Assembly: GCF_026586665.1 (NCBI RefSeq) | Contig: NZ_JAODIY010000008.1 | Coordinates: 62,001 to 126,000 of the forward strand | Source of the DNA: Halovenus rubra | GTDB lineage: Archaea > Halobacteriota > Halobacteria > Halobacteriales > Haloarculaceae | DNA: 64,000 nt | Direction: 5' to 3' | Shown here: one piece after another, positions 22,881 through 28,784 of the stretch | Layout: the number at the start of each line of letters is the position of its first letter | Position numbering within the stretch: the first letter of the stretch is position 1 | Notes under the pieces: generated by a model | Told to the model about the DNA's origin: nothing | The model's database searches: none | Seen by the model: only the letters and a program-made list of their open reading frames with translations | Made by a program: the position numbers and the translations under genes

Positions 22881-23567
22881 ATGTCTAGGTCGGTCGATGT
22901 ATCTGTAATGTACCTTACAGAGACAGCACAGCGATATCTCCGCGCAACGGGACCAGAACACGACGAGATACAGGCAGACATGGCTGGCGTTGCCGACGAA
23001 GAAGGGTTCCCAATTATTGGTCCCGACGCTGGCGGCCTGTTGCGGACGCTTGCCGCGATGACACGGGCCACATCCGTCTTCGAGTTCGGCTCGGGGTTTG
23101 GTTACTCGGCATACTGGTTTTTGCAAGGTATGCCGGCAGACGGTGAAATCGTCTTGACGGAGTTCGATACGGACGAACTTACGATGGCTGAAGAGTTTTT
23201 CAAGCGAGCCGGATTAACTGAGCGAGCTCATTTCGAGGACGGCGATGCGATGGAGACGATTAATGAGTACGATGGCCCCTTCGACGTGGTCCTTATTGAT
23301 CATCAAAAAGAGCGGTACGCTGATGCCTTTAATGCTGTCCGCGAGGACCTGCGTGTCGGGTCGGTCGTGGTCGCGGACAACTTGATGCGGGGTCCAATCG
23401 ATATCGAGGACCTACTTGCATACTTCGAGTCAGGCGAGGCACTCCCCGATAATAAGAGTATGCACGGTGTCGCTGACTACGTCGAGACAGTACGGGCTAC
23501 AAGCGGGTTCCAGACGACAGTCGTCCCGGTTGGGAGCGGGCTATCGCTTACGGTGCGAGTTGAGTAA
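22881..23567 (+). CDS. SAM-dependent O-methyltransferase (class I, COMT/caffeoyl-CoA type)
   Basis: About 228 residues. The SAM-binding motif I is VFEFGSGFGYSAYWF, acidic residues for the ribose follow in LTEFDTDE, and motif IV is DVVLIDHQKERY with metal-binding Asp typical of the cation-dependent O-methyltransferase 3 family (VVVADNLMRG). The start is uncertain: ATGs at 22881 and 22908 and a GTG-initiated longer form are all possible, and none has a clear TATA box at the right distance. The substrate is unknown. Confidence 0.85.
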   Translation: MSRSVDVSVMYLTETAQRYLRATGPEHDEIQADMAGVADEEGFPIIGPDAGGLLRTLAAMTRATSVFEFGSGFGYSAYWFLQGMPADGEIVLTEFDTDELTMAEEFFKRAGLTERAHFEDGDAMETINEYDGPFDVVLIDHQKERYADAFNAVREDLRVGSVVVADNLMRGPIDIEDLLAYFESGEALPDNKSMHGVADYVETVRATSGFQTTVVPVGSGLSLTVRVE

Positions 23568-23647
23568 CTGCTTGAATGGGTGTTATATTAATAAATGTCT
23601 GATCCGTTGGGGTAACGTTTAATCACCTGCACCGAGACCAGAGATGT

Positions 23648-24172
23648 ATGACGGATACAGTCGACTCCGAGACGGTATCGGTCGAACTTGACGAAGAGTT
23701 GCTGGCAGAAATCGAGGATCGGTACGAAGACCTCGGCTACGCTAGCGTCGAAGCAGTCTTCGAGCATGCGGCAGTCGATGCCGTCAGGCACCCAGAGTTC
23801 GACCGAAGTGACCTGCGGGCGATGTTGACCAGCGAAGTAGAAATTCAGGAGGAGCGGCTGTTCACTAGTGAGACAGTGACTGGCGATATCGGCGTCGAGC
23901 GGCCCGACATCGACGCAAATGCCTGGGACTGGATGTTAACAGAGACAGCAGTTGACGACCTCAATCGCCGTGACGACTACGCAAAAGAGCGTATCGTCAC
24001 AGAACTTGACGCACTCGTCAGCGGCGAGTGGCGCAATCCGACGGAGGATTTAGACGACCTTGCCGAAGCACCACACGATAAACTGCTCATCGGTCCGTTC
24101 CGTCTGGGTTGTCGTGTTGACCACGAAAAGCAACTGCTGTACGTGCTCCATATCCGGATGCGCGGGAGTTAA
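23648..24172 (+). CDS. Single-chain RHH-antitoxin-like and RelE/ParE-like fusion
   Basis: A 174-residue protein. The N-terminal part (ETVSVELDEELLAEIEDRYEDLGYASVEAVFEHA) has the strand-helix-helix pattern of ribbon-helix-helix DNA-binding antitoxins. The C-terminal 80 residues (LTETAVDDLNRRDDYAKERIVTELDALV...KLLIGPFRLGCRVDHEKQLLYVLHIRMRG) match haloarchaeal RelE/ParE-type toxins, including the G-x-x-R-L-G-C-R-V-D strand. Both modules lie in one open frame. A box GTTTAATC about 26 bases before the ATG suggests a leaderless transcript. Whether it acts as a self-neutralised toxin or a regulator is unknown. Confidence 0.72.
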   Translation: MTDTVDSETVSVELDEELLAEIEDRYEDLGYASVEAVFEHAAVDAVRHPEFDRSDLRAMLTSEVEIQEERLFTSETVTGDIGVERPDIDANAWDWMLTETAVDDLNRRDDYAKERIVTELDALVSGEWRNPTEDLDDLAEAPHDKLLIGPFRLGCRVDHEKQLLYVLHIRMRGS

Positions 24173-24344: not shown

Positions 24345-24392
24345 TTAGACTAGTCTAAACTGTGGTTTTGATGATAACTATTATATTATTTG
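24345..24392 (+). promoter_or_regulatory. Metal-ABC operon operator (TTAGACTAGTCTAA) and TATA box
   Basis: A perfect 14-bp palindrome TTAGACTAGTCTAA lies at 24345-24358. It is followed by an AT-rich TATTATATTATTTG (24379-24392) that can be the TATA box, about 25-30 bases before the start codon of the substrate-binding protein. The palindrome has the size and TTAG...CTAA ends seen in DtxR-family sites, and a DtxR/SirR gene ends this operon. I infer metal-dependent repression. Confidence 0.7.
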
Positions 24393-24413
24393 TCCTATCA
24401 ACACCAAACGACG

Positions 24414-25484
24414 ATGAAAGATCGAAGCAAACCAATCTCGACGGATCGATACTCACGAAGACGTGTCCTCGCGTCAGGTGCCGGCGCTCTCGCAGCCGGT
24501 GTTGCCGGCTGTTCAGGTCTGGTGACCACCTCTGATACCGAGGAAACTCCAGAGGACGGTCCGTCGGTTACAGTCGCATCGTTTTTCAGTTTCTATGATT
24601 TCGCACGCCAGGTTGTCGATGGGACACCTCTCCAGGTTGAGAACCTCGTTCCGACGGGGTTACATGGCCACGGCTGGCAACCGAATGCATCAGTTACAGA
24701 ACGAATCATCGAAGCAGATGCGTTTCTTCACGTTGGCCCGGGATTCCAGCCATGGGCTGATCGTGCAATTAAGACGCTCAAAGCTGACGATATCGATACA
24801 CAGTTGATAGATGCACGTGAGGATGTCGAACTACTTGGACTTGCTGCGTCGCTCGACCCCGATGAGGAAGGCGTCGGTGAACAGCAAGGGAAGGACCCAC
24901 ACTTCTGGCTCGACCCACAACGCGCAAAGAAAGCAATCGATAACATCGCAGACGGCCTGGTCGAGCTTGCACCGGAGCATGAATCAGCGTTCCGAGACAA
25001 CGCCACAGCTTACAAATCCGAAACAATCGATCAGATTGACGCAGATTACCGGAAGATTTTCGATTCTGCTGACCGCGATGTTGTGCAGTTGGCGGCACAC
25101 AATGCCTTCCAGTATATCGGCGCGCGCTATGGCGTCGAGATGCGCCCGCTTGTCACCAACCTAGCCGCAACTGGTGACGTTGCACCAGATGACATCACGC
25201 AGGCACAGGAAGTTATCGAAGAAAATGAGATTCAGTACATCGCAAACGGTGTGTTTGAGGCGCGCCGCCCAGCCGTCCAGCTGATCGAAGAGACCCAGGC
25301 AGAGGCATACTTCCCTGTGACACCGTACGCTGGTGTGCGTGAGAATTGGGTTGAGAATGATTGGGGGTATGAAGAAATTGCTTACAACATCAACATGCCA
25401 ACCTTCGAAGTTATTCTTGGGAACAAACAGCCCGCCGAGGCAGGTCCCGACGGCTGGGCCAATACGTGGAGGAATTTCAAATGA
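24414..25484 (+). CDS. Metal ABC transporter substrate-binding lipoprotein (ZnuA/TroA family)
   Basis: Cluster A-1 solute-binding protein of 356 residues that captures Mn2+ or Zn2+ outside the cell. The N-terminus has SRRRVLASGAGALAAGVAGC, a Tat motif and lipobox. Metal-ligand regions are present: GLHGHGWQP near residue 85, DPHFWLDP near 160, AAHNAFQYIGARYG near 225, and the late YFPVTPYAG. The His-rich loop of many ZnuA proteins is missing, which leans towards manganese. It overlaps the ATPase gene by four bases. Confidence 0.92.
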   Translation: MKDRSKPISTDRYSRRRVLASGAGALAAGVAGCSGLVTTSDTEETPEDGPSVTVASFFSFYDFARQVVDGTPLQVENLVPTGLHGHGWQPNASVTERIIEADAFLHVGPGFQPWADRAIKTLKADDIDTQLIDAREDVELLGLAASLDPDEEGVGEQQGKDPHFWLDPQRAKKAIDNIADGLVELAPEHESAFRDNATAYKSETIDQIDADYRKIFDSADRDVVQLAAHNAFQYIGARYGVEMRPLVTNLAATGDVAPDDITQAQEVIEENEIQYIANGVFEARRPAVQLIEETQAEAYFPVTPYAGVRENWVENDWGYEEIAYNINMPTFEVILGNKQPAEAGPDGWANTWRNFK

Positions 25485-26266
25485 GTACACATACAGAACG
25501 TGAAACGACGACCGACCAGACTGCTGCCAGTCACAGCCAACTCATCGAGGTTACAGATGTTAACTTCGGATACACCGCAACACCTGTTGTCAGGGATATC
25601 TCGCTCCAGATAGAGGCTGGTGAGTATGTCGCTATAGTTGGCCCGAATGGCTCAGGTAAATCGACGTTGATGAAACTGATGATGGGGCTGGTTAAACCAG
25701 ACGAAGGGAGAATCCGGCTGTTCAGTGAGCCAGCACACAAGTTCGATGACGGCTCTCGAATCGGATACGTCGCCCAGCATGCAAGTGCTTCCAAAGAGAT
25801 GCCGATTACTGTCCGAGAGGTCATAAAGATGGGACGGTTCCCACATATCGGGTTCGGACGGCTGTCAGCGGCGGACTGGGAAATTGTCGATCAGGCACTT
25901 GAAACAGTTGGTATGTCAGCGTTCGCGAACCGTCGAGTAACGAACCTATCGGGTGGGCAGCGTCAGCGCGCATTCATCGCACGGGCACTTGCGAGTGAAG
26001 CCGATCTACTCGTGCTTGACGAACCAACTGTCGGTGTCGATGCCGAATCAGTCGAAGCGTTTTATGACTTGTTGGAGGCGCTCAACGATGAGGGTATCAC
26101 AATCTTGCTCATCGAGCATGACCTGAGTGCTGTCACTAACCACGCCGAGCGCGTTGTCTGTCTGAACGGTCAGATACATTTCGATGGACCGACAGAGGCG
26201 TTCGTCGAGAGCGATGCGCTTGTACAGGCGTTTGGAACAGCAGCTGCTGGATTGGGTGGGGTCTAA
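25481..26266 (+). CDS. Metal ABC transporter ATP-binding protein (ZnuC/MntB-like)
   Basis: ATPase of 261 residues powering metal import. Walker A GPNGSGKST, Q-loop AQHAS, signature LSGGQRQR, Walker B LLVLDEPTVGVD and H-loop LLIEHD are all intact. The start ATG overlaps the TGA of the binding-protein gene. Its own stop codon directly abuts the permease ATG, so the three genes are translationally linked. Confidence 0.95.
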   Translation: MSTHTERETTTDQTAASHSQLIEVTDVNFGYTATPVVRDISLQIEAGEYVAIVGPNGSGKSTLMKLMMGLVKPDEGRIRLFSEPAHKFDDGSRIGYVAQHASASKEMPITVREVIKMGRFPHIGFGRLSAADWEIVDQALETVGMSAFANRRVTNLSGGQRQRAFIARALASEADLLVLDEPTVGVDAESVEAFYDLLEALNDEGITILLIEHDLSAVTNHAERVVCLNGQIHFDGPTEAFVESDALVQAFGTAAAGLGGV

Positions 26267-27283
26267 ATGATCGACGTACTCGCAATGCCTCTCCAGACTG
26301 GTGGACTCGACGCGCTACTTGGGCCGCTGTACTGGTTCCTTGAGTTGTGGTCGGGCGTGCTGACGTGGCTCGCGAAGATAGCAGACATCAGAATGATTCA
26401 AGAGCAGAATGCGTTCATGCATCGTGCGTTCCTCGTAGGAATCTGTATTGGTGTTATGGCGCCACTAATCGGAACATTCCTCGTCCACCGCCAGCTTGCG
26501 CTTATTGGCGATGCACTTGCCCATACTGCGTTTGCTGGTGTTGCAATCGGCTTATTCCTCAACTCGGTCATCAATCTTGGCGTCACACCATATCTGACCG
26601 CCGTAGTTGTCGCGATGATTGCGGCGCTGTTGATCGAGGTCATATCAGAGGCGACTGATGCATACAACGATGTCTCGATGGCAATTGTCCTCTCGACAGG
26701 GTTTGCGCTGGGAACGACACTTATCAGTATCAATGCTGGCGGACTGACTGTGAGTGTTGAGCGATACCTCTTTGGAAATCTCTCGACGGTTACCCCACAG
26801 GCTGCTGCAATTCTGTTGGTGTTGTTTGCGATCGTTATCGGTGTCGTTGGACTTACACGCAATCAGCTCCTGTATGTCACATTTGATGAGACTGCTGCAG
26901 CAGTGTCCGGCCTCCCAGTGAACTGGTATAACCGGATTATGGTGATGCTTACTGCACTTGTCGTCGTTGGCGCGATGCAGATTATGGGTGTTATTCTCGT
27001 TGCAGCAATGTTGGTCGTCCCAGTTGCTGGAGCATCACAGGTGTCTCGAAGTTTCAACGAAGCAGTACTCGTCTCGGTCATTCTCGCAGAGATCTCTGTA
27101 ATCGTTGGTATTGCGTTTGCCTACCATCTCGGTGCGACTGCTGGTGGCATCGTCGTCTTAGTCGCCGTCACGCTCTATACGGGTGCTGTCGTTGTCGGAA
27201 AACTACAGACGGTATATGGCGATAATTCAATGCCGGAGATGGGGAGTATCAATGCAAACGAGACTGAGTCAGCTGCAGATTAA
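26267..27283 (+). CDS. Metal ABC transporter permease (ABC-3 family)
   Basis: Membrane subunit of 338 residues with about eight or nine hydrophobic segments, of the ZnuB/MntC ABC-3 family. Recognisable stretches are HRAFLVGICIGVMAPLIGTFLVHRQLALIGDALAHTAFAGVAIG in the first half and GAMQIMGVILVAAMLVVPVAGA in the second. It starts immediately after the ATPase stop. The regulator gene follows after about 50 bases. Confidence 0.95.
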   Translation: MIDVLAMPLQTGGLDALLGPLYWFLELWSGVLTWLAKIADIRMIQEQNAFMHRAFLVGICIGVMAPLIGTFLVHRQLALIGDALAHTAFAGVAIGLFLNSVINLGVTPYLTAVVVAMIAALLIEVISEATDAYNDVSMAIVLSTGFALGTTLISINAGGLTVSVERYLFGNLSTVTPQAAAILLVLFAIVIGVVGLTRNQLLYVTFDETAAAVSGLPVNWYNRIMVMLTALVVVGAMQIMGVILVAAMLVVPVAGASQVSRSFNEAVLVSVILAEISVIVGIAFAYHLGATAGGIVVLVAVTLYTGAVVVGKLQTVYGDNSMPEMGSINANETESAAD

Positions 27284-27335
27284 CTGTACGTCGAAACCGC
27301 AGGCGCACACGCGATGTGTGGATACAACAGAACCA

Positions 27336-28040
27336 ATGAACAAACCCAACCAACGATCCGCGGATGGACACGAAGACGGCGTAACCATAACGCCAAAAAT
27401 GGAGGACTACCTTCGACGGATTTACCGACTCCAACAGGAGTCAGAGGGTCGGGTGTCGAACTCGAATCTCGCGGAAACACTCGATGTCACTCGAGCCACC
27501 GTAACGAGTATGCTTGATACGCTCTCAAGTCGTGGGTTGATTGACTGGCAACGATATCGTCCAGTACGGCTGACAGCCAAAGGAGAAGCCACGGCACTAC
27601 AGGTCCTTCGAAGACATCGTCTCGTCGAAACAATGCTTGCTGAGTTGTTCGGGTACGCACTCAGTGAAGTCGACGCCGAAGCCGACGTCTTAGAACATCA
27701 CATCAGTTCCCGGCTCTGCCAGACAATCGAGCAGGAGTTGGGAATGCCACAGACCGATCCTCACGGTGACCCGATACCAGACAGCGATCTCGACATCGAC
27801 CGGACGACAGATGTGAGTTCGTTGCCCACGGTTGCGGAGTCCTCGACTGTCGAGGTAACACGGCTTCTCTCACAAGACGAGGAGATTCTCGAATACCTTG
27901 TCTCACTGGGAATCGAGCCGGGAAAGACGCTCTCACTCGACGAGATAACACCGATTGGGATGATTACTGTTACGGTCGAATCGACGGCCAGACAGGCGAA
28001 TTTGCCACGACGGATTGCCTCGCACGTGCTGGTCAAGTAA
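27336..28040 (+). CDS. DtxR/SirR family metal-dependent regulator
   Basis: A 234-residue regulator. The N-terminal winged helix (MEDYLRRIYRLQQESEGRVSNSNLAETLDVTRATVTSML) is followed by the dimerisation/metal domain (RRHRLVETMLAELFG...DVLEHHISSRL), which carries the conserved His/Glu metal ligands. An SH3-like FeoA domain is at the C-terminus. As the last gene of the importer operon it probably represses this operon when Mn2+ or Fe2+ is plentiful, through the palindrome ahead of the binding-protein gene (inference). The start MNKPNQRS is chosen because the longer open frame overlaps the permease. Confidence 0.92.
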   Translation: MNKPNQRSADGHEDGVTITPKMEDYLRRIYRLQQESEGRVSNSNLAETLDVTRATVTSMLDTLSSRGLIDWQRYRPVRLTAKGEATALQVLRRHRLVETMLAELFGYALSEVDAEADVLEHHISSRLCQTIEQELGMPQTDPHGDPIPDSDLDIDRTTDVSSLPTVAESSTVEVTRLLSQDEEILEYLVSLGIEPGKTLSLDEITPIGMITVTVESTARQANLPRRIASHVLVK

Positions 28041-28088: not shown

Positions 28089-28784
28089 TTACTCCTCGCC
28101 AGCGTCAAACTCGTGGCCACAGTCAGGACAGGTTACCTCGTCGTGGCGTAGCTCAACGCTGTGTTCACGCACGTCACGCATCACTTCTGAGATGCGGTCT
28201 TCTGCTTCGAGTTCTTCCTCGACGGTGAGGTCGACGCCTTCGACTTCCAGTAAAAACTTCGCTACTTCGGTCGCCTCGTACATTACATCGTCGAGTTCCT
28301 CGGCAGTAAAGAAGTCACACATCGCTCCATAGAGGAAAGTGGCCCCGGCCATCCGTACCTTCTCTTCGAAGGAGCTCCGGGCCTGGTTGACCGCCTGTGG
28401 CGAATAGGTGTCGGTCATGAATGGGACGAGATGAGGAAGGTTCTCGCCAATTTTCGTCATTTCGACACCAGTCTCAGTACGGAAATCGGCACATAGCCTT
28501 GCGATTGCCCACTCGCGTGCAGTAATATAGCTCCGCTCACGGAGAAAATCGTTGGCCCGGTCATAAGTACTTCCGTCGATTTTTGTGAACTTCTCGTACT
28601 TTCTTACATCTTCAGGTATGTCGGTTTCAGTTATCTCGGACCCGGACGGCACGGTGTCAGATTCATCGACACCGAGGTCGGCACGGGCGTCGCTGTCGAC
28701 TGGCTTGTCTTCTGTCTTCGAGCCCGGCGATGTCTCCTTGTTGTCGCCCGTCGGTTTCTCCGACGGCGCGGGGTCGTCTGCCAT
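28089..28784 (-). CDS. DUF5806 family haloarchaeal protein
   Basis: A 231-residue protein. The first 65 residues are acidic and low in complexity. The core RKYEKFTKIDGSTYDRANDFLRERSYITAREWAIARLCADF, continuing to EATEVAKFLLEVEGVDL, is what I know as DUF5806, a helical family conserved in haloarchaea. The last residues contain CPDCGHEFDAGEE, half of a zinc ribbon. Function unknown; convergent with the SirR gene. Confidence 0.8.
   Translation of the reverse strand: MADDPAPSEKPTGDNKETSPGSKTEDKPVDSDARADLGVDESDTVPSGSEITETDIPEDVRKYEKFTKIDGSTYDRANDFLRERSYITAREWAIARLCADFRTETGVEMTKIGENLPHLVPFMTDTYSPQAVNQARSSFEEKVRMAGATFLYGAMCDFFTAEELDDVMYEATEVAKFLLEVEGVDLTVEEELEAEDRISEVMRDVREHSVELRHDEVTCPDCGHEFDAGEE

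Follow-up and report, generated by a model that had tools for sequence, protein, structure and literature searches.

The window analysed here, a stretch of 64,000 nucleotides from Halovenus rubra, encodes at 23648–24172 on its forward strand a single protein in which an antitoxin-like ribbon-helix-helix (RHH) domain is joined to a toxin domain of the RelE fold. As read from its sequence, we hold with moderate confidence that this is a domesticated, self-capped RelBE that represses no operon and probably cleaves nothing. The frame runs from an ATG at 23648 to a TAA ending at 24172 – 174 codons plus the stop, with no stop codon inside – and the 174-residue product, P0001, is present in a single copy in the host assembly (3.57 Mb, haloarchaeal) according to a search of its own genome. 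Three parts follow one another on the forward strand. Residues 8–49 (23669–23794) form the RHH domain, delimited by profile alignment to separate antitoxins; residues 50–90 (23795–23917) form a linker and neutralising tail homologous to the C-terminal part of separate antitoxins; and residues 91–174 (23918–24169) form the RelE-fold domain, which is matched by profile and by structure.

As a single query, P0001 matched the Pfam family RHH_1 at 14 bits, below the cut-off of 20.5, and matched no RelE family of Pfam or NCBIfam. Its best Pfam match, POTRA, was taken as chance, as was a match to a PDB ‘lysozyme’ (5i8l), which consisted of one short segment hit three times over in a repetitive chain. 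Among the five fusion proteins described below, four match ParE_toxin (PF05016, best 1e-4). When the alignment of the five was compared with profiles of separate proteins by hhalign, residues 90–174 matched the toxins (99.9%, 52% identity) and residues 8–87 the antitoxins (99.4%, 38% identity). P0001 itself scored 97.7 bits against the profile of 27 separate toxins and 58.7 bits against that of 38 separate antitoxins; the best of 1000 shuffled versions of P0001 scored 11.6 and 6.0 bits, respectively. ParE_toxin is matched by 8 of 9 representatives of the separate toxins, and RHH_1 by 6 of 7 representatives of the separate antitoxins. Among solved structures, the toxin profile finds RelE of Thermus, of M. 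tuberculosis and of E. coli, and the antitoxin profile finds NikR through its RHH domain (PDB, 3e-6). An earlier note on this DNA had proposed that RHH and RelE-like domains share one polypeptide, and these matches to both halves, far above shuffles and within one frame, bear it out. Because the frame is single in all five fusions, the gene is not a two-gene type II RelBE operon. Sequence homologous to RHH proteins and a toxin domain of the RelE/ParE (BECR) fold are combined in one gene, as in a fused mono-gene module.

The model of full-length P0001 is of moderate confidence (pLDDT 66, pTM 0.59). The model of residues 91–174 superposes on solved RelE proteins, most closely on M. tuberculosis RelE2 (3g5o; Z 8.3, rmsd 1.7, 70 residues aligned) and RelE1 (9g12; Z 8.3, rmsd 2.6, 76 aligned), and also on an archaeal RelE (1wmi; Z 7.5, rmsd 2.8, 78 aligned) and on E. 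coli RelE (4fxe; Z 7.4, rmsd 3.3, 79 aligned). The antitoxin tail, residues 71–90, is among the more confidently modelled parts, as it might be if it were packed on the RelE core. The structure prediction that the earlier note had proposed as a check thus supported the C-terminal half; for the N-terminal half it gave two helices (16–25 and 34–47) and no strand, in a monomer model built from five sequences of a fold that needs a dimer. Residues 1–90 modelled alone had a pLDDT of 61. No RHH chain was among the nine Foldseek matches of this model (best E 3.6), although a monomer from five sequences cannot show an RHH dimer, and VIA-align gave Z up to 3.7 for the same monomer. The RHH identity of the N-terminal half rests on sequence.

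Relatives with the same fusion and split versions were both found, in the search that the earlier note had suggested: five fusions in Halovenus, and two-gene relatives across Halobacteria. Full-length or near-full-length relatives of P0001 occur in Halovenus aranensis (79%), Halovenus salina (77%), a Halovenus MAG (69%) and a Halobacteriales MAG (68%). Full-length, uninterrupted fusions were present in 5 of 18 genomes of the genus, and the same five were the only ones among 146 genomes of the family. The search of the class, in a sample of 391 genomes that contained three of the five fusion genomes, found matches in 206, mostly as two separate adjacent genes. Across these searches of 18, 146 and 391 genomes, the fusion was seen only in the genus Halovenus. 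A scan of viral contigs with the alignments of separate toxins and of fusions found no relative, and none turned up in phage records.

The five fusions form one clade (support 100/100) with a long stem of 0.89 changes per site. In the RpoB tree four of the five hosts form one clade (100/99); the fifth (G394, an incomplete genome) had no RpoB match. A tree of DUF5806 from 17 genomes left the branching of the fusion hosts unresolved. Two neighbours are shared: an O-methyltransferase-like gene (22908–23567, forward strand) lies upstream of the fusion in four of the five genomes, and a DUF5806 gene (28089–28784, reverse strand) lies downstream in four of the five. Given the single fusion clade, the host clade in RpoB and the common neighbours, it is most likely that the gene arose once and was then inherited vertically.

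The surroundings of the gene vary in other respects. In the window the fusion and the DUF5806 gene are separated by an operon for metal ABC transport (24390–28040), which includes a DtxR-type/FeoA regulator; three other fusion loci (L001–L003) showed no such operon at the corresponding place and have DUF5806 near the fusion. An ORF of about 800 residues is found immediately 5’ of the fusion in L001 (1378–3891) and L002 (1476–3893), in the latter between the fusion and the methyltransferase gene.

All five fusion genes are intact and, judged from their substitutions, under purifying selection. For the gene as a whole, dN/dS between pairs ranges from 0.09 to 0.29; these values are approximate, as several pairs are close to saturation at synonymous sites. 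The pooled pN/pS, uncorrected, is 0.34 (0.24–0.45) in the RHH, 0.38 (0.27–0.51) in the antitoxin tail and 0.21 (0.14–0.29) in the RelE half – every 95% interval lies below 0.52.

The two-gene modules of Halobacteria resemble the fusion in homology along both halves, in gene order, and in a promoter at equal distance from the start codon. They differ in that antitoxin and toxin are two genes, the DNA-contact residues are intact, an RGGDAY tail is present and, among the close relatives, an operator motif lies upstream; they also occur on plasmids. NCBI annotates the relatives found on plasmids as ‘type II toxin-antitoxin system RelE/ParE family toxin’ and ‘ribbon-helix-helix domain-containing protein’. 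Of 27 two-gene pairs, 24 have overlapping genes, with the toxin in another frame. Two pairs (L008 and L009) have antitoxin and toxin in the same frame with one stop codon between them, an arrangement that is a possible intermediate toward fusion. Antitoxin and toxin likewise share a frame in L010, with a single stop at the junction, and the toxin of L008 has no ATG ahead of its first conserved residues. In another genome (G424) eight module matches lie on contigs 1, 2 and 4, three of them on a single contig with equal scores, which looks like recent multiplication.

Two further in-frame joinings were seen, neither of which belongs to the Halovenus fusion clade. In genome G309 (L016, 1318–1779), an in-frame deletion of independent origin has removed the neutralising tail of the antitoxin, so that an intact RHH runs straight into an intact, tail-bearing RelE toxin; the operator motif is retained. 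A plasmid of Haloarcula litorea (NZ_CP119780.1; L091, 923–1411) encodes a ‘hypothetical protein’ of 162 residues in which a degraded antitoxin, its RHH largely gone, is fused in frame to a RelE toxin.

RelBE of E. coli and RelBE1 and RelBE2 of M. tuberculosis (4fxe, 9g12, 3g5o) share with the fusion the RelE fold (Z 7.4 to 8.3) and the logic of an RHH antitoxin with a wrapping tail; they differ in being separate proteins, in carrying a C-terminal helix with its Tyr, and in autorepression through DNA binding, which has been shown for E. coli. EzeT, a single-chain zeta toxin of E. coli, has a toxin fold different from that of RelE. Its layout is alike, with an N-terminal antitoxin and a C-terminal toxin in one chain, but EzeT is toxic after removal of its N-terminus (PMC4803016), whereas the Halovenus fusion is missing the catalytic Tyr. 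Fused genes of the RelE/ParE superfamily of toxin-antitoxin systems, 195 in number and including ParD-ParE and RHH-YoeB, have been described (PMC11980606), with antitoxin and BECR-fold toxin in one polypeptide and the antitoxin first in several families. Table 2 of that paper has no RHH-RelE class, its main text has no words beginning haloarchae or Halobacteria, and no loss of both the DNA-contact residues and the catalytic tail was found described in those parts of it. Solo and re-used homologues of toxins and antitoxins have also been discussed (PMC2701414). A literature search by title and abstract found nothing on the Halovenus fusion. Fused RelE/ParE modules are thus already published, and the Halovenus RHH-RelE fusion is a variant among them.

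The RelE half has lost residues and a tail that its two-gene relatives carry. Residues were counted in 27 distinct toxins, a set that excluded L016, interrupted or incomplete toxins, and rows with fewer than 80 residues after the WxW motif (including L023). The tail tyrosine is present in 27 of 27 separate toxins and in none of the five fusions, in which the rest of the tail is also missing; the suspicion that the protein stops early and lacks the catalytic tail was therefore correct. Arg147, found in 26 of the 27, is Leu in all five fusions; Leu108 (27 of 27) is Arg in all five, and Lys119 (27 of 27) is lost in four. In P0001, M171 is a substitution as well. K145, R152 and R172 are kept in all five fusions and align with the E. 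coli RelE residues that we take to be K54, R61 and R81. The charge of the RelE core in the fusions, −3 to −7, is inside the range of the two-gene toxins (−8 to +4).

The catalytic set of RelE (equivalents of K54, R61, R81 and Y87) is thus incomplete in all five fusions, for want of the Tyr, which is critical for catalysis in E. coli RelE (PMC3507626). In M. tuberculosis RelE1, changing R60, R65, R85 or Y89 to Ala harmed toxicity, and R61A had little or no impact (PMC12620021). These four residues match the E. coli-type set, and the fusions keep the equivalents of three of them, the exception being the Tyr. With K145, R152 and R172 invariant, some RNA activity remains conceivable, but the fusion probably cleaves RNA no longer.

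One alternative is a conditional single-chain toxin, comparable to EzeT and other fused modules, in which the antitoxin part holds the RelE part inactive in cis until a trigger such as a virus protein cleaves or displaces the antitoxin part. In its favour, the fusions retain the antitoxin tail, the K54, R61 and R81 equivalents are invariant, purifying selection is strongest on the RelE half, and functional fused modules have been reviewed (PMC11980606, PMC4803016). Against this, the tail with the catalytic Tyr is missing from every fusion and present in every separate toxin counted, and no conserved in-frame start-like codon that could give a separate toxin product lies directly ahead of the toxin part; a conditional toxin seems unlikely. 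The earlier note’s idea of a self-neutralised toxin fares in the same divided way: the neutralising tail has been retained, but with the catalytic Tyr gone little may remain to neutralise.

The kept tail could instead serve as a decoy against addiction, with the fusion acting as an antitoxin in trans by binding related mobile RelE toxins. None of the five fusion genomes carries the close two-gene module, against 3 of the 13 other genomes of the genus, a difference too small to carry meaning when many of the genomes are incomplete. The tail, moreover, should already be occupied by the RelE domain of its own chain, and we regard such a decoy as distinctly unlikely.

The RHH half has changed at the positions that would touch DNA. 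Residues were counted in all 38 distinct separate antitoxins recognised by script and in the five fusions. Asn11 is present in 36 of the 38 antitoxins and in no fusion (Ser in P0001); Arg13, also in 36 (the remaining two have Lys), is Glu or Ala in all five fusions (Glu in P0001). Arg34, Arg39 and Arg43 are invariant among the 38; in the fusions Arg34 is kept once (Val in P0001), Arg39 is Glu in all five, and Arg43 is kept in none (Val in P0001). The net charge of the RHH is −8 to −11 in the fusions, compared with −4 to +1 in the 38 separate relatives. A model of DNA-bound RelB from E. coli has S3, D5 and R7 on the strand contacting bases and S28 on helix 2 contacting the backbone (PMC2812701). 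By pattern, without an alignment, R13 corresponds to RelB R7 and S33 to RelB S28. The polar or basic residues expected to read bases from the strand, N11 and R13, are lost in all five fusions, and the fusion appears to have lost the grip of its RHH on DNA. S33 on helix 2 is kept in all five, which counts against a full loss of DNA binding, and the hydrophobic core is partly kept.

The control region has changed too. A core-promoter-like element, GTAACGTTTAAT (23612–23623, forward strand), lies as far from the ATG as its counterpart does in two-gene operons, in an alignment made by eye. Close two-gene relatives have a GTAA-TATA-like element followed by ACACANNTTCAACAC just 5’ of the start codon; at the corresponding site of the P0001 locus (23624–23643, forward strand) this motif is absent. 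It was found at 26 of 28 two-gene loci with antitoxins of the TVN/TVQ type (25 by script and L026 by eye; L016 is among the 26, and L010 and L044 are the two without it). The motif was found at none of the five fusions (four by script, and L004 by eye on 140 bases) and with none of 11 other separate antitoxins that have different strand motifs. From its position and conservation, ACACANNTTCAACAC is a putative operator. The palindromic site that the earlier note proposed to look for upstream of 23648 did not appear: 23550–23700 holds no palindrome or inverted repeat of at least 7 bases. With the RHH residues lost and the motif absent in all five fusions, the sequence speaks against autorepression.

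A DNA-binding regulator with a changed target would accord with the RHH homology, the kept S33 and the partly kept core. Such a regulator is improbable in view of R13 replaced by Glu or Ala and R39 by Glu in every fusion, R43 lost in every fusion, the strongly negative RHH, and the lack of an inverted repeat within 23550–23700. The proposal that the toxin fold now serves as a regulator, if by that a DNA-binding one is meant, is not supported: residues that read bases or lie on helix 2 are lost, and so is the operator motif of close two-gene relatives. That the gene is a decaying remnant of a toxin-antitoxin operon, as residues lost on both halves and the long stem might suggest, is very improbable given a frame intact in all five genomes, a pN/pS far under 1 in RHH, tail and RelE half alike, and the common neighbours and single clade.

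The favoured reading, a domesticated and self-capped RelBE, would begin in the ancestor of one Halovenus clade, where the antitoxin and toxin of a haloarchaeal relBE-type operon would have become a single frame. The resulting protein may dimerise through its RHH scaffold, with the antitoxin tail permanently capping the RelE core of its own chain, and would neither repress its own promoter nor act as a normal toxin. Inhibition of RelE by RelB works through displacement of the C-terminal helix, the one bearing the catalytic Tyr87 (PMC3507626). With that part gone from the fusion and the antitoxin tail permanently attached, the simplest reading is that the protein is locked in the neutralised state – an RHH dimer that would have no grip on DNA and would be made without autorepression.

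Since both activities are apparently lost and the gene has been kept intact, the evidence suggests that the fusion was given a new job. Its present role is most likely to bind RNA, the ribosome or a partner protein without cleavage. The invariant basic trio of the RelE part points to contact with RNA or the ribosome, or with the protein’s own tail. It is possible, though we put this forward tentatively, that the gene is an exapted, non-toxic one, in which a self-capped RelE scaffold binds the ribosome or RNA through its retained Lys/Arg patch without cleavage and the RHH dimer is off DNA. If so, it would offer a clear example from the archaea of how a mobile toxin-antitoxin module became a fixed chromosomal gene of a clade. 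The path can be traced from two-gene relatives, through same-frame pairs with one stop, to a fused clade with a retained gene seemingly without both of its defining activities, and it brings the question of toxin-antitoxin domestication within reach of experiments on a few proteins in a laboratory haloarchaeon.
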